The position numbers and the translations under genes are program-made. 36,119 nucleotides of DNA. Origin: a virus. Location: IMG/VR virus record IMGVR_UViG_3300025570_000046, positions 1 through 36,119 of that record. One strand, given 5' to 3'. The notes under the pieces are model-generated. The model was not told where the DNA came from, ran no database searches, and saw nothing but the letters and a program-made list of their open reading frames with translations. This document shows, one piece after another, positions 4,025-23,251 of the stretch. Each line of letters opens with the position of its first letter. The first letter of the stretch is position 1.

Positions 4025-6334
4025 ATGGGAAAACTTATAAAAGAATGGGTTAAGGGAATCTTAACTGAGGGTATAGAGAAAAAGGTAGTAGTTTACGCTG
4101 GTAGATTTCAACCATTTCACAAAGGTCACAATGCAACTTACGAGCATTTGGTAAAACAATTTGGCAGAGATAATGTTTATATTGGTACATCCAATAAAAC
4201 TGATAACATCAAATCACCATTTAAGTTTAACGAAAAGAAAATGATTATGACAAAAATGTTTGGCATCTCATCAAACAAAATTGTTCAAATCAAAAACCCA
4301 TACGCTCCAACCGAAATCATTGGTAAGTTCAACAAAGAAACTACAGCATTCATAACTGTAGTTGGTGAAAAAGATAGATACAGATTAAAAGGTAAATATT
4401 TTGAACCATACCATCCTGATAGAATTGAAAAAGGATACGAAGATAAGGGATATGTGTATGTAGCACCTGCTCAATCAAATCCAATTAGTGGAACTGATGT
4501 TAGAAATTGGTTATCCAAAGGTTCAGAAGAACAAAGAAAGAGTGGATTCAAAAAAGCATACGGAAAGTTTGACCCAAAAATATTTAAATTGGTTAGTGAT
4601 AAGTTGTTTAAGATTGAATCTAAGATGGAAAGATTCATTAACTCATTTGATATAGAACCACTTTTAGAAGCATCTCAAAATTCATCAATTGGAAAATCAT
4701 TAGTAGATGATGGGCCTGGATTTACATATGGTAACTCAAAAACATACAAAAAAGTTGGTGAAGATGTTGCTCAAATGTTGGGTTGGCAAGTAGTTGATTA
4801 TATCTTAGGTAGTGATGAAGATTCAATTTATGCAGATGATGAAAGAATATTGGGTGATAAATACCCAGTATCATACTTCCCATCAGGTAAACCAGGATTG
4901 GATGGACAAATCAGATATACAGATTTAAAAGGTAATCCTGCATATAAGACATGGGCAAAACATATTACAAAAGTAGCAACAATGGTTGGATATACTTTAG
5001 TAGATTTCTTAGATGCTGAAAAAGCAGCTGATAGTTCTAAAAACGAACCAAAGAAAGTATCAGACCCTAATAATACATCAGATGTAGAAACGGAAAAGTT
5101 TAAAGAACTAAAAGAATCTTTAATAACTGAAGGTGGGGCATATGGACATATGAATCATCCATTTGATATTGAAATGAATTTAACATTTGGTGATTTAAAA
5201 CAAATCATTAGAGGTGCATTAAACGGTAAGTTAGAATTAGCTAGAGAAAAAACAGATGGACAAGCATTAGCAGTTAGTTGGAGAGATGATAAAGGTTTAA
5301 TCGCAGCACGAAACAAAGGACACTTAAAGAACAAAGGTGAAAACGCATTAGATATAAGTGCAATGGCATCTAAATTTGGTGGACGTGGTGGATTAACCGA
5401 TGCATACAATTACGCAATGAGGGATTTAAATGATGCAATAAAATCGCTATCATCAGCTCAACGAGATAAGATATTTAAACAAGGTTCATCATTTATGAAC
5501 TTAGAGGTTATATGGCCTACATCAGTAAACGTAGTTCCTTACGGACAAGCTCTATTAGTATTCCACAACACAGGTGAGTTTAATGATGACGGTATTCAAA
5601 TTGGAGCAAATACCGATGCAGCTAAGATATTAGCCGGGATGATTAAACAAATAAATAAAAACGTTACTGATAAGTACACAATACAAGGCCCACCAGTAAC
5701 ACAACTACCTAAAAATCAAGAACTATCCAAAATGCAATCTAGGTTTAATTCACAACTTAAAAAAGTTCAATCTGAATTTAAATTAAAAGATTCTGATGGT
5801 GTAGCAGATTATCATCAAGCATGGTGGGAACAATGGGTTGATTCAAACTCACCATCTACATTAGATAACAAAACCAAAATGGGATTGGTAAAACGTTGGG
5901 CGTTTGATGATAAATCATTTAGATTAGATAAGAAAAACATTACTGATTCCGATACATTAGAGTGGTCTAAGAAAATCGATAAAAAAGACCATACTAAGTT
6001 AGCAAAAGAAAACACTAGAAAATTCGAAGATATCTTTTTAGGTGTTGGAGCAGAAGTTCTATCATTTATGAGTTCAGTACTTACAGTTAATCCTGATAAG
6101 GCAGTTAGAGATATGAAGAAGAGATTAGACCAAACGATTAAAGATGTTAGTAAATCGGGTAGTCCTGAAAAGATTACTAAACTTAAAATGGAGTTAGAAA
6201 GATTAGCAGCAATAGGTGGTAAGGATAAGATTGTACCAAATGAAGGTTTAGTATTTGTTTACAAAGGAGATACTTACAAACTTACAGGTGCTTTTGCAAG
6301 TTTAAACCAGATATTAGGTTTAATGTACTTTTAA
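4025..6334 (+). CDS. NMN-adenylyltransferase-like / polynucleotide-ligase-like fusion protein
   Basis: 769 residues. Residues 19-165 form an HxGH nucleotidyltransferase: GRFQPFHKGH at 26-35 and ISGTDVR at 154-160, as in NMN or phosphopantetheine adenylyltransferases. The C-terminal half carries covalent nucleotidyltransferase (ligase/capping) motifs: motif I KTDG with candidate nucleotide-accepting Lys409, a motif-III-like LEVIWP around Glu494, motif IV EGLVF at 740 and a motif-V-like Lys752 in YKLTG. The gap between motifs III and IV (about 245 residues) is far longer than in T4 RNA ligases, so an extra domain is inserted. The N-terminus (KGILTE/G, cut predicted after Glu15) resembles a capsid-targeting leader. 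LLE/A at 213-216 and LITE/G at 366-370 lie at domain boundaries. Substrate is unknown: RNA or DNA end repair or NAD chemistry are possible. The two enzymatic folds are fairly certain from motifs; packaging into the head is inference. Confidence 0.75.
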   Translation: MGKLIKEWVKGILTEGIEKKVVVYAGRFQPFHKGHNATYEHLVKQFGRDNVYIGTSNKTDNIKSPFKFNEKKMIMTKMFGISSNKIVQIKNPYAPTEIIGKFNKETTAFITVVGEKDRYRLKGKYFEPYHPDRIEKGYEDKGYVYVAPAQSNPISGTDVRNWLSKGSEEQRKSGFKKAYGKFDPKIFKLVSDKLFKIESKMERFINSFDIEPLLEASQNSSIGKSLVDDGPGFTYGNSKTYKKVGEDVAQMLGWQVVDYILGSDEDSIYADDERILGDKYPVSYFPSGKPGLDGQIRYTDLKGNPAYKTWAKHITKVATMVGYTLVDFLDAEKAADSSKNEPKKVSDPNNTSDVETEKFKELKESLITEGGAYGHMNHPFDIEMNLTFGDLKQIIRGALNGKLELAREKTDGQALAVSWRDDKGLIAARNKGHLKNKGENALDISAMASKFGGRGGLTDAYNYAMRDLNDAIKSLSSAQRDKIFKQGSSFMNLEVIWPTSVNVVPYGQALLVFHNTGEFNDDGIQIGANTDAAKILAGMIKQINKNVTDKYTIQGPPVTQLPKNQELSKMQSRFNSQLKKVQSEFKLKDSDGVADYHQAWWEQWVDSNSPSTLDNKTKMGLVKRWAFDDKSFRLDKKNITDSDTLEWSKKIDKKDHTKLAKENTRKFEDIFLGVGAEVLSFMSSVLTVNPDKAVRDMKKRLDQTIKDVSKSGSPEKITKLKMELERLAAIGGKDKIVPNEGLVFVYKGDTYKLTGAFASLNQILGLMYF

Positions 6335-7940: not shown

Positions 7941-9569
7941 ATGAATAATAAATGGATATCAAACTACATCAATGAAATATCAGAAGATGAAACCGACCCA
8001 CAAGAAATTAAAGTAGGTAACTATCAAACAAAATATTTCCATGTTTGCCCAGGTGCATCAAAACTATATGGTGATATAGAATCCAAAGGTGTTGATATGG
8101 ATATGGCAGAAAGAAGTGTAAGATTACAAGACGCACTTTTCTTTGTAGAAGAACACATCCAACGAGATGGTTATAATCCAGAAAAAGATTATGTAATGGT
8201 TGCTAATAATATAGCAAAGAACATTATGAAGATGGCATCTATGATGGGGTTAGAAAAAGAACATTCATATATACAAGGTCACGTTGATGTGATTGAAAAA
8301 GTAGTAAACCAAAAAGGGTTAGAAGAAAGAGTAATGGAACTTACAGAAAAGAATGTTCCAACTGATTCATCCAAATGGTCTTACTATAAAGCTCAAGCAA
8401 AGAAGAAATTCGATGTATATCCATCAGCATACGCAAATGGATGGGCTGCTAAAAAATACAAAGCAGCAGGTGGTGGTTGGAAGACTGAAAATAAAGAATC
8501 AGTAAACGAAGCCAAATCAATGGACATGAAAAAACGACTAAAGGTTTACGATAAACTCAAAAAAGGTGATGAGATTACAATTAAGTATGGCTCATCGATG
8601 AGTAGTGGTAATGAAGCCAAATTCAAAGTGACTAAGGGTAAAACTTTAGTAGGTAAGCAGAAGGTAGAGAGAATCATTCTACAAAATGTAGCAAATCCAA
8701 AAGGTGTTAAGTATTATCTATATCAGAGAGATGGAAACGTATCTCTGGCAATTGGCAATATGGGTGCTACTATTGAAGATATGTATGAATCAGTAGTTAC
8801 TGAAGCTCGTTCAAAAAAAGTAACTAAGCAAATGTGGGCAAAGATGGATGATGATAAAAAAATCGATGCACTTCTATCCGTAGTTAAAGACCCAGACGAT
8901 GCTGAGAAATATTTTGATAAAAAGTGGAATGAATTACCATCTGGATTTGAAAGAGATATGGTCATTTACGAATCAGTAAAAGAAGCAACTCCAGAAGAAG
9001 AGGATGAATTCCACAGAAATTTAGATAAGTTAGTTCATAAAACATTCGGACACAGTTCTGATGAAGAAAAAATGAATGAAGCTAATGAACCAGATATAAT
9101 TTCACAATTAAGAGATATCGTTTCAAAAAAACAAAATCAAAAATTAAAAGACCCAAAAAGTGGTAAAACGATGAGAGTTGATTTATACTCAGCATCAGTA
9201 GTTACTCAAGTGTATGATGCACTAAAACAACAATCAAATAAAGATAAATTTGTTGGTATGGGTTTAGTTGGTATGGTTAATACGGCATTCAAACTTATGA
9301 AGAAAGAAAATACTTCTGAAGTAATTGAAGAAGCTGAGTACCAAGGTAGAAAAGTAGAACTTAACAAGCCAATGCAAGGTGATGTTAAGAAATTTAAAGT
9401 TTATGTTAAGAACGATAAAGGTAATGTTGTTAAAGTAAACTTTGGTCAAAAGGGAATGGTAATCAAAAAAGATAATCCTGCAGCCCGTAAATCATTTAGA
9501 GCAAGAATGAATTGTGATAACCCTGGCCCAAAATGGAAAGCAAACTACTGGTCTTGTAAAAAATGGTAA
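7941..9569 (+). CDS. Multi-module protein with repeated V-x-E-A junctions, candidate internal-head polyprotein
   Basis: 542 residues. Compact modules are separated by short Glu-rich junctions that all read hydrophobic-x-(x)-Glu-Ala: ESVNE/A at 190, SVVTE/A at 288, ESVKE/A at 348, KMNE/A at 380 and VIEE/A at 464. Modules: 28-125 (helical, from HVCPGASKLYGD); 139-180 (VYPSAYANGWAAKKYKAAGGGW, a short module common in phages); 195-280 (beta-rich); 291-343; 383-455 (helical); and a C-terminal 512-542 module with RMNCDNPGPKW and YWSCKKW. T4 gp21 cuts after [LI]-x-E, so I read the junctions as likely prohead-protease sites. The N-terminus YINE also fits. The ribosome binding site is AAGGA, five bases before the ATG. 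Individual module functions are unknown to me. The gene is certain; polyprotein processing is a hypothesis. Confidence 0.75.
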   Translation: MNNKWISNYINEISEDETDPQEIKVGNYQTKYFHVCPGASKLYGDIESKGVDMDMAERSVRLQDALFFVEEHIQRDGYNPEKDYVMVANNIAKNIMKMASMMGLEKEHSYIQGHVDVIEKVVNQKGLEERVMELTEKNVPTDSSKWSYYKAQAKKKFDVYPSAYANGWAAKKYKAAGGGWKTENKESVNEAKSMDMKKRLKVYDKLKKGDEITIKYGSSMSSGNEAKFKVTKGKTLVGKQKVERIILQNVANPKGVKYYLYQRDGNVSLAIGNMGATIEDMYESVVTEARSKKVTKQMWAKMDDDKKIDALLSVVKDPDDAEKYFDKKWNELPSGFERDMVIYESVKEATPEEEDEFHRNLDKLVHKTFGHSSDEEKMNEANEPDIISQLRDIVSKKQNQKLKDPKSGKTMRVDLYSASVVTQVYDALKQQSNKDKFVGMGLVGMVNTAFKLMKKENTSEVIEEAEYQGRKVELNKPMQGDVKKFKVYVKNDKGNVVKVNFGQKGMVIKKDNPAARKSFRARMNCDNPGPKWKANYWSCKKW

Positions 9570-15647: not shown

Positions 15648-15778
15648 TTTCTAAAAAGAAAATATTAAAAGAAGAACTTTCAAATAAAGATTTGGAAAAT
15701 ATTCGTCTACTTATTAGATATGAGGTAGCACAGATTATGTTTGATTTATATAGAAAACGAAAAGTTTGGGATAAGTAA
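15644..15778 (+). CDS. 44-residue protein between core gene and prohead protease
   Basis: A short but well-placed gene. Its ATG overlaps the upstream stop as ATGA and its TAA overlaps the protease start as TAATG, so it fills the gap exactly. The peptide begins MISKKKILKEELSNKD, continues through NIRLLIRYEVAQIMFDLYRK and ends KVWDK. It is basic, probably a helical pair. The tight coupling and codon use like its neighbours argue for a real gene. Function unknown; a small head-assembly factor is a guess. Confidence 0.6.
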   Translation: MISKKKILKEELSNKDLENIRLLIRYEVAQIMFDLYRKRKVWDK

Positions 15779-16395
15779 TGAGTAGACTATTAGTAGATAT
15801 TATTCCGTTTAAAATGAGTAAGACTCAAATCAATGAATCATTGGAAGATAACAATGGTAGATTGATTGTTAATGGTGTTTTACAGAGAGCGGAAGCAGAA
15901 AACCAAAATGGTAGAGTTTATCCACGTTCAATCTTAGAAAGAGAAGTGGATAAGTACAAAGGTAGAGAAATCAAAGAAAATAGAGCATTTGGTGAATTAG
16001 ACCATCCAGAATCATCAGTAGTTGAACTAAAAAACACTTCACATATCATCAGAGACGTATATTGGAAGGGTGACGATGTAATGGGTAAAGTAGAAGTACT
16101 TAAAACACCAGCAGGTAATATCCTCAAAGAGCTTTTAGAAGCAGGGTGTACGGTTGGTATCTCTTCAAGAGGTATGGGTTCTGTAAAAGAAGCAAGTAAT
16201 GGTAAATCTGTTACTGTGGAAGATGACTTTGATTTGATATGCTGGGACTTTGTTTCAAATCCATCAACACATGGTGCATTTATGAGACCAATGAACGAAT
16301 CAGTAGTAGGTAAAGGCAAAACACCATCATATAAAAAAATTAATACATTAGTAAGAGATATCATCTGTGAAATAGATGGTGTTTGTTCAATTTAA
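15778..16395 (+). CDS. gp21: Prohead protease, T4 gp21 family (peptidase S80)
   Basis: 205 residues (T4 gp21 has 212). This serine protease with a herpesvirus-assemblin-like fold digests the scaffold and trims capsid proteins before DNA packaging. The expected catalytic elements are visible: His76 in GELDHPESS, the serine in VGISSRGMGS (Ser129 or Ser130), and acidic residues in VEDDFDLICWDFV around 148-158. The substrate-cleft lead-in NQNGRVYPRSIL at 43-53 is also typical. INE/S at 18-21 and MNE/S near 172-175 are candidate self-cleavage sites, matching the autoproteolysis known for the family. This enzyme would cut the many [LIVM]-x-E sites in neighbouring proteins. Confidence 0.93.
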   Translation: MSRLLVDIIPFKMSKTQINESLEDNNGRLIVNGVLQRAEAENQNGRVYPRSILEREVDKYKGREIKENRAFGELDHPESSVVELKNTSHIIRDVYWKGDDVMGKVEVLKTPAGNILKELLEAGCTVGISSRGMGSVKEASNGKSVTVEDDFDLICWDFVSNPSTHGAFMRPMNESVVGKGKTPSYKKINTLVRDIICEIDGVCSI

Positions 16396-16404
16396 GGATA
16401 TCAC

Positions 16405-18645
16405 ATGAAAAAACTAAAAGATTTACTGAATGAAACTATCAACCCACAGTTAGGTAAAGTTTATTCTGACCCATACGCTAAATCATTCGTTAAAGAAAAC
16501 GAAGATGAAGAATCCTCAGAGATGACTACAGAACAAAAACATGCATTCTTAGAAGCAGTTAAAGCATACAAATCATTTGGTGAAACTGTATATAGAAACG
16601 AAGGGTTATCTGAAGTATACGAATCAATCAGAGGGTTGGTAGAAGTTGCTGGTAAAAATATGGTTAAAGAAACTGAAGGTTCATTTGATGGTATTACTGT
16701 TAGTAGACACGTAAAGAGAATGAATGAATCATTCAAAATATTTGAAAAAACTTTAAGAGAAGTTGCAACACTACAACAACGATTAGAATCATCTTATGAT
16801 GAAATCGGTGAAACATTAGGAAAGTATTACGAAATCAATGAAACTGATGATAGTGAAATTGAAGAAGGTAACGAATTTGGTGCAGCAAGAGCAAAAGCAA
16901 TCGCAAATGGTGATAGTGAATTTGAAGTGGATGGGAAAACTTACAAAGTTACTAATGTTGATAAAGAAGATAAAGAGAATGCTGAAAAGTTCGCAAGTGA
17001 ATCATTAAAAGAATTTAACTATCCACAATCAAAGATGAGTAATGTGTTCAATCTTCACTTTGCTCAATTGACTGACAAACTTCCTGGTATGTTTTATATT
17101 GTTGGTAGGGATGTGTATCACAATGATAAGAAAATCGTTTCGTTGACTGGTATGGATTCAGTTAAATCAGCTGTAGCAAAAGTTAAAAAGAAACTTGGTA
17201 TTAAAGAATCAATGAAACTTACTGATATGTTAAAAGAAGGTAAGGATGTTGGACACTACGAAAGAGTTGGAAACCAAACAATCGTAGATAGTAACTTTGT
17301 AAACTATAGTAAAGGTGTATTACCAAATTCAGAACTCGTACATTTAGGTATGGGTGACTTTGCAATTAAATCAAAATCAGGAACTATTAAATTTCAACGT
17401 TCAGGTAAGATGGATGGTATCGGACAAGATTTTGTTGGTAGACCACATCGTATGACTGATGATAAGAATGGTAAATTGGTAGACTTATTTCTTAAATTAA
17501 TGCTTAAAAAGAAAAAAGCAATAATAAGCATGAGTGAATCAACAGTAAACGAAGGTATGGCTGGATGGATTGCAATTGACCATAAAGGTAATAAATTAGA
17601 AATCAAAAAATCTGAAGCTAAAGACCTTTACAACGCAAAACTATTAGCAATCAAAAAACTAAAAGTACCTAAATCAAAAGTTGGTATGTTGGCAATCAAA
17701 CCAGCAGTTGATGAATCAGTAGTTAACGAAGCAAAGTACGATATCGGAATGGCTCGTAAAGGAAACGGATTAACTATTTATAACAAAGCCGAAGAAGAAA
17801 ATGGTGATTACAAAAACGTAGCCCACATTGATAACAAAGGTAAAGTAAAATACTTAGATAAAAAAGTACCATCCAACATCAAAAAAGAAATCGAAGCCGA
17901 AGCTAAGAAAATGATAGAAATCACAAACGAAGGAAACACAATGATAAAATTAAAAGACTTAATGAACGAATCATTTGGATTTGGTGAACTACCATCATCA
18001 AAGTTAATGAAGATGAAAGTATCAGCTAAAGATATGTTAGCATCAGTTGGTAGTAATAATATAAATGAATCTGAAGAAGATGAATCTGCAAACGAAGATG
18101 TTTATGTTAAAAATAAAAAGACCGGAAATACTTACGCAGTAAAAAACGCTGACCCATCTAAGCATGAACCACCATCTGAAAAAGAGATATCAAAAGCAAA
18201 AGCAGATGCAAAAGACGAACCACAACGGGGTTCGGTATCGAAACCAAAATCATTTGATGATGGCGACCCAACCTATTCTGGTCAGACAACAAAAGCGAGA
18301 GATAACGCAGAGAGAGGAACATCAGATGCAGAAGATGAGCCTGTGAGAGATGACAATACAGATATGCAGATTGCAGACATGAAAGATGAACTCAAACGAA
18401 TGAACCCAAAAGACGTATCAGACTATGCAGAATCTGATATATTCCCTTATTTAAAAGGAAAGGATTTAAAGACAGCAGAGACTTTAGTTTCAGATATAGC
18501 AAAGTTGCACCATATTCGCGACATTGAGGAAATAACACCTTTGAAAAAGAAACTGTCCAAATTATTTGATGATAGAATGACTTTAGAATCAGTTAATGAA
18601 ACTAAAAAAAGATTTAAGAAATTGGCTAATATTATAAAAGGATAA
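16405..18645 (+). CDS. Multi-module head protein with internal copies of the leader motif, candidate polyprotein
   Basis: 746 residues. Starts MKKLKDLLNE/T. Related leader-like segments recur inside: MKLTDMLKE/G at 270-279 and MIKLKDLMNE/S at 513-523, as if three genes had fused. Other predicted protease junctions are STVNE/G at 383, SVVNE/A at 442, ITNE/G at 509, INE/S near 555 and ESVNE/T near the end. Modules: helical 40-150; 160-260 with a KTYKV strand; 280-375 beta-rich; 384-435 (GMAGWIAIDHKGNKLEI to KVGMLAIKPAVDE), a compact module; 445-505; and 565-746, a charged helical tail. The ribosome binding site is AAGGA, six bases before the ATG. The gene lies right after the protease, where T4 encodes scaffold gp22. 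The true gp22-like protein is at 19848, so this one is more likely packaged cargo than scaffold. That is inference. Confidence 0.75.
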   Translation: MKKLKDLLNETINPQLGKVYSDPYAKSFVKENEDEESSEMTTEQKHAFLEAVKAYKSFGETVYRNEGLSEVYESIRGLVEVAGKNMVKETEGSFDGITVSRHVKRMNESFKIFEKTLREVATLQQRLESSYDEIGETLGKYYEINETDDSEIEEGNEFGAARAKAIANGDSEFEVDGKTYKVTNVDKEDKENAEKFASESLKEFNYPQSKMSNVFNLHFAQLTDKLPGMFYIVGRDVYHNDKKIVSLTGMDSVKSAVAKVKKKLGIKESMKLTDMLKEGKDVGHYERVGNQTIVDSNFVNYSKGVLPNSELVHLGMGDFAIKSKSGTIKFQRSGKMDGIGQDFVGRPHRMTDDKNGKLVDLFLKLMLKKKKAIISMSESTVNEGMAGWIAIDHKGNKLEIKKSEAKDLYNAKLLAIKKLKVPKSKVGMLAIKPAVDESVVNEAKYDIGMARKGNGLTIYNKAEEENGDYKNVAHIDNKGKVKYLDKKVPSNIKKEIEAEAKKMIEITNEGNTMIKLKDLMNESFGFGELPSSKLMKMKVSAKDMLASVGSNNINESEEDESANEDVYVKNKKTGNTYAVKNADPSKHEPPSEKEISKAKADAKDEPQRGSVSKPKSFDDGDPTYSGQTTKARDNAERGTSDAEDEPVRDDNTDMQIADMKDELKRMNPKDVSDYAESDIFPYLKGKDLKTAETLVSDIAKLHHIRDIEEITPLKKKLSKLFDDRMTLESVNETKKRFKKLANIIKG
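17941..18645 (+). CDS. Possible nested in-frame product from an internal start
   Basis: An in-frame ATG at 17941 is preceded by AAGGA with a six-base gap, the same layout as the start at 16405. It opens with MIKLKDLMNE/S, the leader shared by the other short genes. A 234-residue protein (FGFGELPSSKLMKMKVSAKD early, helical tail late) could be made separately. Either a real second start exists or this is the scar of a gene fusion. The sequence cannot decide. Confidence 0.4.
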   Translation: MIKLKDLMNESFGFGELPSSKLMKMKVSAKDMLASVGSNNINESEEDESANEDVYVKNKKTGNTYAVKNADPSKHEPPSEKEISKAKADAKDEPQRGSVSKPKSFDDGDPTYSGQTTKARDNAERGTSDAEDEPVRDDNTDMQIADMKDELKRMNPKDVSDYAESDIFPYLKGKDLKTAETLVSDIAKLHHIRDIEEITPLKKKLSKLFDDRMTLESVNETKKRFKKLANIIKG

Positions 18646-20825: not shown

Positions 20826-22460
20826 ATGGATTTAAAAAACATCCTTAATGAAGGTTCTTCTCATACCGCTAGATTGTCTGAAGCTACAAGAGCTTTGGCA
20901 GGGAAATGGGAAAAAACTGGTCTTTTAGAAGGAATTGACAACGAAGTTGAAAAAGCTGGTGTTGCAACACTTTTAGAAAACCAAGCACGACAATTAGTAA
21001 AAGAAGCTTCTGCTACTGGTACTTCTGCAAATTCAGAAGAGTGGGCTGGTGTAGCTCTACCATTAGTAAGACGTATCTTTTCTGAAATCGTAGCAAAAGA
21101 TTTCGTATCTGTACAACCAATGAACTTACCATCGGGTCTAGTATTTTATCTAGATTTCAAATATGGAACAGGTCAAACTGGATTTGCAACAGGTAGTGGT
21201 AAAGATTCACAAACTGATTCTGTATTCGGTGTAACTGATACTACTTCAGACCCATCAGGTGGTTTGTACGGTGCAGGTAGATTTGGATACTCAATCAACG
21301 ATGCAACATCTGCAACTCAAACATTGGGTACTGCTGGAGCAAACAAATTCGTAACTTCATCTGTATCACTTGCAGACGTAAATTATGATACTCAGTTTAC
21401 TTCATCTAATGGTGCTGATATCGTTAGTGGACTTATTTACAAAATCGCTGTACCAACAGCATCTATCTCTGGATATGATGATAAAGGAATCAGAGGATTT
21501 AGAGTAGAAGGTGCTGAAATTACAGACCAATATCCACAGTTTACTGTAGCAAATGGCGGAGATATCGTATTTGTTGCAAAAGGTGCTTTAGATGCTAGTA
21601 CACTTGTAGTTAAGTATCACAAACAACCAACTGATACATCAAGAGGTGATTTCGAAGCAACTGGAACTTCATTAACTGCTAATCCTGAAGTTGATATCGA
21701 TATTCCAGAATTGAATGTTGAAATGAAGAGTTTACCAATTGTTGCTAAGACACGTAAGTTGAAAGCACAATGGACTCCGGAATTCGCACAAGATTTGAAC
21801 GCTTATCATTCAATCGATGCTGAAGCTGAATTAACTTCTATGTTGTCAGAATATATCTCACAAGAGATTGATTTTGAAATCTTAGATATGTTGATTCAAG
21901 ATGCTAAGAGTACTGGTTACTGGTCTACACAAGTAGGTAGAGAATGGAATGGAAACGCATTTGCTGACTATTCTACAACTGGAGCAGCTGCTTCTGCATT
22001 TACACAAGGTGCATGGTTTCAAACACTTGGTACTGTAGTTGCTGGTGTATCTAACAAGATTCACCAAAAAACATTAAGAGGTGGAGCTAACTTTATGGTA
22101 GTATCTCCTGATGTTGCAACAATTATTGAATCTATCCCAGGATATGCTTCAACAGCAGATAACGGTGATGCTCAATTTGCATTCGGTGTAACTAAAATTG
22201 GTTCATTGAACAGTAGATTCCAAGTATATAAGAATCCTTATATGAAAGAGAACGTAATCCTAATGGGATATAGAGGAACACAATTCCTTGAAACTGGTGC
22301 TGTTTACAGTCCATACATTCCATTGATTATGACTCCATTGGTATATGACCCTAAAAACTTCACTCCTCGTAAGGGCGTTATGACACGTTACGCGAAGAAA
22401 ATGTTGAGAGGGGAATTCTACGGTAAGGTTTATGTAGATGGATTACACAAAATTCAGTAA
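20826..22460 (+). CDS. gp23: Major capsid protein, T4 gp23 family
   Basis: 544 residues (T4 gp23 has 521). It forms the hexamers of the head. The N-terminal propeptide starts MDLKNILNE/G and contains several hydrophobic-x-Glu sites. By analogy with T4 cleavage after Glu65, I predict maturation at LVKE/A after Glu60, just before SATGTSANSEEWAGVALPLVRR. The conserved core VRRIFSEIVAKDFVSVQPMN spans 81-100, and GLVFYLDFKYGTG follows. The C-terminal RKGVMTRYAKKMLRGEFYG is also gp23-like. The strong AGGAG upstream fits the most abundant virion protein. The unit ends with a perfect terminator at 22496. Confidence 0.95.
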   Translation: MDLKNILNEGSSHTARLSEATRALAGKWEKTGLLEGIDNEVEKAGVATLLENQARQLVKEASATGTSANSEEWAGVALPLVRRIFSEIVAKDFVSVQPMNLPSGLVFYLDFKYGTGQTGFATGSGKDSQTDSVFGVTDTTSDPSGGLYGAGRFGYSINDATSATQTLGTAGANKFVTSSVSLADVNYDTQFTSSNGADIVSGLIYKIAVPTASISGYDDKGIRGFRVEGAEITDQYPQFTVANGGDIVFVAKGALDASTLVVKYHKQPTDTSRGDFEATGTSLTANPEVDIDIPELNVEMKSLPIVAKTRKLKAQWTPEFAQDLNAYHSIDAEAELTSMLSEYISQEIDFEILDMLIQDAKSTGYWSTQVGREWNGNAFADYSTTGAAASAFTQGAWFQTLGTVVAGVSNKIHQKTLRGGANFMVVSPDVATIIESIPGYASTADNGDAQFAFGVTKIGSLNSRFQVYKNPYMKENVILMGYRGTQFLETGAVYSPYIPLIMTPLVYDPKNFTPRKGVMTRYAKKMLRGEFYGKVYVDGLHKIQ

Positions 22461-22591: not shown

Positions 22592-23251
22592 ATGCCAGAG
22601 AACGTAGAAAGAAAACCACCTAAAGGAAACATTAAATTTACAATTTCACTATCAGATGAACAAAAAACATCAAAAGGAGAAATACTCAATCATCCGTTTA
22701 ATTTTATCATAGGCCAGGCGGGTAGTGGTAAAACTTTATTAGCATGTCAAGTTGGATTGGATATGTTTTTTAAAAGACAAGTTAATAAAATAGTTATAAC
22801 AAGACCAACTGTATCAAATGAGGACAATGGGTTTCTACCTGGCTCATTAGATGAAAAGATGGAGCCTTGGTTAGTACCAATCAAATCTAATATGAGAAAA
22901 GTTTATAACAAACCAGCTATTTTAGATAAAATGATGGTAGATGAGCAAATAGAATTAGTATCATTAACACACTTTAGAGGAAGAACATTTGATAACTCCA
23001 TAGTTATAGTAGATGAGTTTCAAAATCTAACTAAACAACAACTTCTTATGGTGTTGGGTCGTGTCGGTAAAGGCTCTACTATGATATTATGTGGTGACCC
23101 ACAACAAATTGATTTAAAATTTAGGAATGATTCAGCAATACATGAAGTTCCTAAATTAAAAGGTTCAAAATGGGTTTACGATGTTGTATTAAAAGATAAT
23201 CATAGACATGAATCTTTAAATGATATTTTAAGATTATTAACAGAATATTAA
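22592..23251 (+). CDS. phoH: PhoH-like P-loop ATPase
   Basis: 219 residues. Walker A GQAGSGKT at 41-48 and Walker B IVIVDEFQN with Asp141 and Glu142. The PhoH signatures TRPTVSNEDNGFLPG and GDPQQIDL are present, and it ends with a NHRHESLNDI helix. It covers essentially only the ATPase core. PhoH-like genes are widespread in marine phages; proposed roles include RNA metabolism and phosphate stress, but the phage function is not established. It is its own transcription unit between structural genes, with a weak AGGA ribosome binding site. Confidence 0.9.
   Translation: MPENVERKPPKGNIKFTISLSDEQKTSKGEILNHPFNFIIGQAGSGKTLLACQVGLDMFFKRQVNKIVITRPTVSNEDNGFLPGSLDEKMEPWLVPIKSNMRKVYNKPAILDKMMVDEQIELVSLTHFRGRTFDNSIVIVDEFQNLTKQQLLMVLGRVGKGSTMILCGDPQQIDLKFRNDSAIHEVPKLKGSKWVYDVVLKDNHRHESLNDILRLLTEY

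Follow-up and report, generated by a model that had tools for sequence, protein, structure and literature searches.

The 36,119-nt stretch of viral DNA analyzed here (the window) encodes, at positions 4025-6334 on the + strand, a 769-residue protein (P0001) that is probably a head-cargo polyprotein, processed by the prohead protease and delivering a kit for RNA repair and NAD metabolism into the host cell. Behind a leader, the chain comprises three pieces: an NMNAT-like module (residues 16-215, the N-module), a small middle domain (216-369), and a covalent nucleotidyltransferase (370-769, the C-module). A preliminary description of the window had listed the motifs HxGH, ISGTDVR, KTDG (K409), LEVIWP, EGLVF (740), and a motif-V Lys (K752), all of which are present in the translation, and had read the protein as two fused enzymes. 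Both enzyme modules were recovered, but the two-part scheme was too simple: residues 216-369 form a third piece between them, and relatives carry up to ~10 modules per chain. We infer cleavage, packaging, injection, substrates, and a role against host defenses, and hold these parts with different confidence. The polyprotein architecture is very likely, packaging and injection are likely, and the RNA-repair reading, taken on its own, stands at even chances.

In the model that we propose, the 15-residue leader would target the chain into the prohead core, where a gp21-type protease would cut after Glu at L/I-x-E motifs, removing the leader and separating residues 16-215, 216-369, and 370-769. 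The freed pieces would remain inside the head until they pass into the host together with the DNA. The ligase-like enzyme, joined in relatives by kinase, HD, and CCA-adding modules, would most likely repair RNA (tRNA) cut by host defense nucleases, and the NMNAT-like enzyme would support the NAD pool. Both the repair of RNA and the restoration of NAD by phages are established means of countering host defense (PMC7824862, PMC9503650).

The phage is T4-like, and the gene sits among its head genes, with terminase and portal nearby. The preliminary description named gp21 as the candidate cutter, and a gp21-like prohead protease, the presumed processing enzyme, is indeed encoded in the same window (15778-16395, +; phrog_207 head maturation protease, E 9.8e-53). 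The major capsid protein (20826-22460, +; phrog_138, E 3.9e-73) features the same type of site in its N-terminal region, at residues 9, 19, 35, and 60 (LVKE|ASAT); a PhoH-like gene lies directly behind it (22592-23251, +; phrog_170, E 4.5e-60). Two other products of the window are also rich in such motifs. Immediately after gp21, a 746-residue protein (16405-18645, +) begins with the leader MKKLKDLLNE and contains 11 [ILVM]xE|[AGS] sites relative to 5 reversed; it is without a family match and resembles either a core protein or another polyprotein of the head. A 542-residue protein (7941-9569, +) with the leader MNNKWISNYINE contains 7 sites relative to 1 reversed, matches phrog_7595 in its C-terminal part, and may likewise be head cargo made of several pieces.

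The cleavage motif of T4 gp21 is L/I-X-E, with the cut after the Glu, and the capsid-targeting sequences (CTS) of T4 are propeptides of 10-19 residues that end in this motif and target cargo to the head (PMC9026906). The leader of P0001 (MGKLIKEWVKGILTE, residues 1-15; 4025-4069, +) is of this type, with similar leaders in relatives. A scan for the strict motif [IL]xE|[AGS] returned exactly four positions in P0001, after residues 15, 215, 364, and 369, and none within the catalytic cores. Predicted site 1 (LTE|G; 4061-4072, +) would release the leader; site 2 (LLE|A; 4661-4672, +) lies between the N-module and the middle domain; and a predicted tandem pair, LKE|S (364) and ITE|G (369), lies before the C-module (5108-5134, +). 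The leader type is kept in relatives whose first module is NMNAT, kinase, KOW-like, or KGQ. Likewise, a stand-alone C-module in a jumbo-phage record (L082) carries its own leader, MKFLKSYEEFLNENLILE|GG, ending LILE|GG.

Motifs of this kind could instead reflect the acidic composition of linkers in an ordinary fused metabolic gene, whose uncut product would work in the cytoplasm late in infection. The linkers are Glu-rich, and the boundaries of BLAST high-scoring pairs gave a modest excess, with 141 forward motifs relative to 101 reversed ones within 3 residues. Because those boundaries are too blurred for site placement, we adopted a core-based count, in which [ILVM]xE|[AGS] was tallied inside and outside HMM-defined module cores of 86 non-redundant relatives with the reversed motif as control. 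Forward sites numbered 303 in 29,078 non-core residues but 29 in 55,946 core residues (10.4 and 0.5 per 1,000 residues, respectively), a 20-fold difference in density that locates the sites at module borders, as the preliminary description had suggested. The reversed motif, identical in composition, showed no linker bias (193 in cores and 76 outside). The non-core share was therefore 303/332 for forward and 76/269 for reversed sites (odds ratio 26.5, P 3e-61); this P value overstates independence since the sequences are related, but the reversed control has the same relatedness.

The position of the Glu is also fixed. At the C-module junction, P1 is Glu in 62 of 73 non-redundant sequences, and all 62 have a hydrophobic P3. 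[LIVMF]xE precedes the kinase module in 10/10 distinct contexts and the KGQ module in 6/6. Mere presence of the motif in short upstream windows did not separate forward from reversed for several modules; this test is weak because LxE followed by a hydrophobic residue fits both motifs, and the fixed Glu position is the informative part. No site was found in the last 14 residues upstream of the ParB-like and CCA cores, since the core models begin inside the module. Together with a leader that persists when the first module changes, the linker bias of the forward motif and the fixed P1 and P3 residues make an uncut metabolic fusion highly improbable.

The polyprotein that we propose instead ends in its most constant part, the C-module (5132-6331, +). 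Its motifs follow in the order expected of a covalent nucleotidyltransferase: motif I, KTDG, with the predicted catalytic Lys409 (5249-5260, +); a motif Ia-like Arg429, 20 residues past the Lys (5309-5311, +); Glu494 of motif III, LEVIWP (5504-5506, +); motif IV, EGLVF, at residues 740-744 (6242-6256, +), with E, G, V, and F invariant; and Lys752 of motif V (6278-6280, +), after which the chain ends 17 residues later. K409, D411, G412, R429, E494, E740, G741, and K752 are invariant across an 80-sequence alignment spanning 36-85% identity (window residue = alignment number + 369). Fold prediction was the check proposed for the nucleotidyltransferase assigned to residues 370-769, and the AF2 model (pLDDT 88.7, pTM 0.85) contains the nucleotidyltransferase core. 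A Foldseek search of the model against the PDB placed T4 Rnl1 at the top, followed by the ASFV ligase and archaeal and fungal RNA ligases, each with a modest E-value (2.5e-3 to 1e-2); capping enzymes stood further down. In a structural realignment with VIA, all 50 of the 50 listed rows were covalent nucleotidyltransferases, and the best among the matches listed was the Naegleria RNA ligase (Z 8.7 over 187 residues, moderate by the tool's own scale). Despite the moderate Z, we favor an RNA-ligase-type reading because the uniform list, the motifs, and weak Pfam matches agree. Of the 80 members, 42 weakly match Pfam RNA_ligase (PF09414; best E 1.2e-3). The C-module of the window itself had no match above the curated cut-off to RNA-ligase families, PF09414 included; PHROGs offered no clear family, and searches of the PDB by single sequence or profile returned nothing useful.

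The C-module nevertheless looks like a covalent nucleotidyltransferase of RNA-ligase type that is not classified with Rnl1 or Rnl2, set apart by the helices between motifs III and IV and by the early stop past motif V. The preliminary description estimated an insert of about 245 residues between these motifs; we counted 246 from E494 to E740, mostly helical in the model, with ~160 residues of helices forming an all-helical insert at about residues 567-729 (5723-6211, +; AF2 secondary structure). An OB or C-terminal helical domain after motif V is absent from both the sequence and the AF2 model, and strand end-joining by the C-module is thus not assured.

These departures from canonical ligases, along with the capping enzymes that share the fold and appear lower in the Foldseek list, would also suit an enzyme that modifies proteins or caps RNA by AMPylation or guanylylation and does not ligate. 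We consider this unlikely: the top-ranked structural matches are RNA ligases, more than half of the 80 members have the weak RNA_ligase similarity described above, and the companion modules belong to RNA end healing.

The RNA-ligase-like module shares its chain with a HIGH-superfamily, NMNAT-like nucleotidyltransferase, the N-module (4070-4669, +), which bears out the HxGH adenylyltransferase that had been assigned to the N-terminus. Residues 23-161 match Pfam CTP_transf_like (PF01467) at E 1.8e-7 (31.9 bits, cut-off 21), and the module matches phrog_395, a PHROG of cyanophage cytidyltransferases, at E 1.2e-14. With a 43-sequence profile, the best solved relatives were archaeal NMNATs (E 1e-7), and the 11 best profile matches were all NMNATs (one deposited as MJ0541; E 1e-7 to 2e-3). 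The GRFQPFHKGH motif (residues 26-35; 4100-4129, +) has an invariant G, R, P, and second H, and ISGTDVR (154-160; 4484-4504, +) an invariant S, G, T, and R, in the 43-sequence alignment. NMN is the presumed substrate, judging from family membership. As a point against the model, the annotated genes of the window included no NadV partner, although the record is a 36-kb fragment.

The middle domain (4670-5131, +) belongs to a DDGPxF family present in 87 of 168 related ORFs and occupies the position of a variable cargo slot. It had no match in the Pfam search or the PDB profile search, and its AF2 model (pLDDT 52) was too poor for use.

Relatives of the C-module are numerous among viruses: one viral scan confirmed 470 stretches, and another gave at least 588. 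An isolate, Microcystis phage Mel-JY01 (PP395634), has the gene too, with GGLGGH among the N-termini predicted after its Glu residues. In 84,980 bacterial and archaeal genomes, by comparison, three contigs matched: L165, L166, and L167 (NZWA01000031, SHWS01000026, and PWLM01000196), binned as Flavobacteriales, Pelagibacteraceae, and Bacillus metagenome-assembled genomes (MAGs), respectively. These are probably phage contigs in bacterial bins. A cellular origin of the C-module was weighed and set aside, as just these three genome-collection contigs matched and all are apparently phage sequence in MAGs. From its distribution, the C-module appears to be essentially phage-only.

Among these relatives, which include many aquatic phages, the N- and C-modules are conserved, with as few as 12 or as many as ~1,500 residues ahead of the C-module. 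Close relatives differ by entire inserts with sites at both ends: relative to the window protein, L031 has 102 additional residues bounded by IKE|A and ISE|A, L035 has 295 bounded by IVE|A and IKE|G, and L039 has an extra piece of ~78 residues. Distant relatives feature a CCA-adding-type head, HD, zeta/AAA_33 kinase, zincin, zinc ribbon, basic, and ParB-like segments, and module order is shuffled (KGQ lies ahead of the kinase in L107 and behind it in L128). HExxH-type (zincin) modules occur in L062, L069, and L080; no peptidase family matched P0001 in Pfam. The kinase module was also observed on its own, encoded by a distinct gene upstream of the polyprotein gene (L034:4321-4956 and L118:2394-3047), which indicates that modules shift between a fused and a free-standing form.

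The recurring modules point to a common chemistry. The kinase profile is nearest L-seryl-tRNA kinase and Pnkp (PNK/PSTK-like), the HD profile is nearest the HD domain of an A-adding tRNA enzyme, and a CCA-type nucleotidyltransferase head domain is also found among the relatives' modules. Judged by these similarities, the set (kinase, HD, CCA head, RNA-ligase-like, NMNAT) is chemically coherent.

This coherence bears on whether the protein could be a component of the prohead core or scaffold, in which the sites would be cut, the fragments would mostly leave the head as do those of T4 gp22 and gp67, and the enzyme folds would persist as relics serving assembly. The gene does sit in the head-gene region, and gp21 fragments of the T4 core proteins mostly leave the head (PMC9026906). 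A scaffold, however, would not need the catalytic residues of both enzymes, which are invariant over large divergence, nor does it account for added modules that are enzymes of coherent RNA chemistry. Furthermore, cyanophage relatives of the N-module have been detected in mature virions. T4-GC190 was found in purified virions of S-SM1 (PMC3037559), where its sequence begins MKKFSAFLNE|A, and NMNAT-like or cytidyltransferase proteins are reported from the virion proteomes of S-CBWM1, S-SZBM1, S-SCSM1, and S-CREM2, with the authors' caution that such enzymes could be co-purified contaminants of CsCl-purified virions (PMC10665884, PMC9602691). The similarity of the N-module to T4-GC190 is weak in pairwise profile comparison and clear via phrog_395. 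Overall, we regard a scaffold role as quite unlikely and retained head cargo as the better reading.

The cyanophages also offer a comparison with the whole chain. In S-SM1 (L170:1040-3164), the gene for DUF6267 (T4-GC71) overlaps that of the virion-detected cytidyltransferase T4-GC190, and PHROG 455 spans both proteins. The pair resembles the polyprotein in that a HIGH-domain protein with a CTS-like leader neighbors a protein with KxDG, EGF(V), and a motif-V-like Lys; DUF6267 of S-SM1 has KWDGAP, VGTKSVFNK, EGFV, and KLVDR in ligase order. Unlike here, the two are separate overlapping genes in the reverse order. The likeness of DUF6267 to the C-module is one of motifs and a single Foldseek (BFVD) match, to an S-PM2 protein; hhalign profile comparison of the two gave no significance. 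DUF6267, a family to which Pfam assigns no function, may be an unrecognized nucleotidyltransferase.

The pairing of these two domains, fused here and in many relatives and overlapping as genes in cyanophages (with PHROG 455 holding both), could alternatively denote one pathway: the C-module would take AMP from NAD+ and the NMNAT-like module would remake NAD+ from NMN and ATP. The use of NAD+ by ligases, however, requires an N-terminal Ia domain (PMC9503650), and the C-module has 39 residues before the catalytic Lys, with no Pfam match among them (a comparison of length and family matches rather than of residues with the Ia domain). Its closest folds are ATP-dependent RNA ligases, and the profile comparison lends DUF6267 no significant homology to it. 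An NAD+-fueled cycle is accordingly very unlikely.

Some relatives seem to release the C-module by other means. In 36 loci (L088, L092, L110, L141, and 32 others), Met rather than Glu stands just before GGAYGH at the upstream edge of the C-module, and AAAGGAG-TTATTATTA-ATG is embedded in a frame that stays open further upstream. A maximum-likelihood tree requires at least 4, and probably ~8, switches between Glu and Met. The Shine-Dalgarno sequence of L092 survives a shift in the codons (KRSLLLM), a pattern that points to selection at the RNA level. Thus, protease site and internal start swap at the same residue and either yields a module starting (M)GGAYGH, an interchange that supports the free C-module as the active form. 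Phages with the internal start probably make a leaderless C-module in the cytoplasm, and in these relatives it may act there rather than as head cargo. At the C-module junction of L145 (ILLLC|GG), the residue is neither Glu nor Met; the junction may have a third state here, unless this is a sequencing error.

More tentatively, and with somewhat less than even confidence, we propose a general cargo-cassette: aquatic T4-like phages would gain, lose, and reorder modules together with their protease sites within one gene, so that a tailored kit is matured in the head and injected before phage gene expression. Its last module would represent a new branch of RNA ligases with the specificity domain between motifs III and IV. 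If this is true, phages can counter tRNA-cutting and NAD-depleting defenses at time zero with head-borne enzymes, and one gene per phage provides a readable, site-delimited list of the injected repertoire. The leader and L/I-x-E borders would then constitute a sequence rule by which head cargo could be recognized in phages from metagenomes, and the RNA-ligase-like enzymes would form a new branch awaiting characterization. It would also help to explain the recurrence of cytidyltransferase-like proteins in cyanophage virion proteomes.

Finally, the protein can be compared with known systems. The open literature that was searched contained no description of several enzymes in one leader-bearing chain with prohead-protease sites between them, which is weak evidence of absence. 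Among RNA ligases, the C-module shares the nucleotidyltransferase core and motifs I, Ia, III, IV, and V with T4 Rnl1 and Rnl2, the Naegleria RNA ligase, and REL1, but it places a helical domain between motifs III and IV, has none after motif V, and falls below family cut-offs. The ejection proteins of SPN3US-type giant phages likewise have propeptides that are cut after Glu by the prohead protease before the proteins are ejected (PMC10052503), but each precursor gives one mature product rather than a multi-enzyme chain. The internal head proteins and Alt of T4 (PMC9026906) are similar in their short leader ending in L/I-X-E, head-gene neighborhood, and cargo that varies between related phages; they differ in being encoded as one protein per gene, not as a single chain in which sites separate several enzymes. 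The polyvalent proteins of phages and conjugative elements (Iyer et al. 2017, PMC5512222) are also large, multidomain, mosaic proteins of unrelated activities that are predicted to be injected with the DNA. Their processing is ascribed to embedded zincin-like peptidases, which are common but not universal; here, gp21-type sites mark the borders, a capsid-targeting leader is present, and a zincin module occurs in some relatives only. The same study noted no association of polyvalent 2H domains with RNA ligases, whereas an RNA-ligase-like module is the constant part of the present family. In sum, polyvalent proteins are the nearest concept, and the internal proteins and Alt of T4 are the nearest mechanism.
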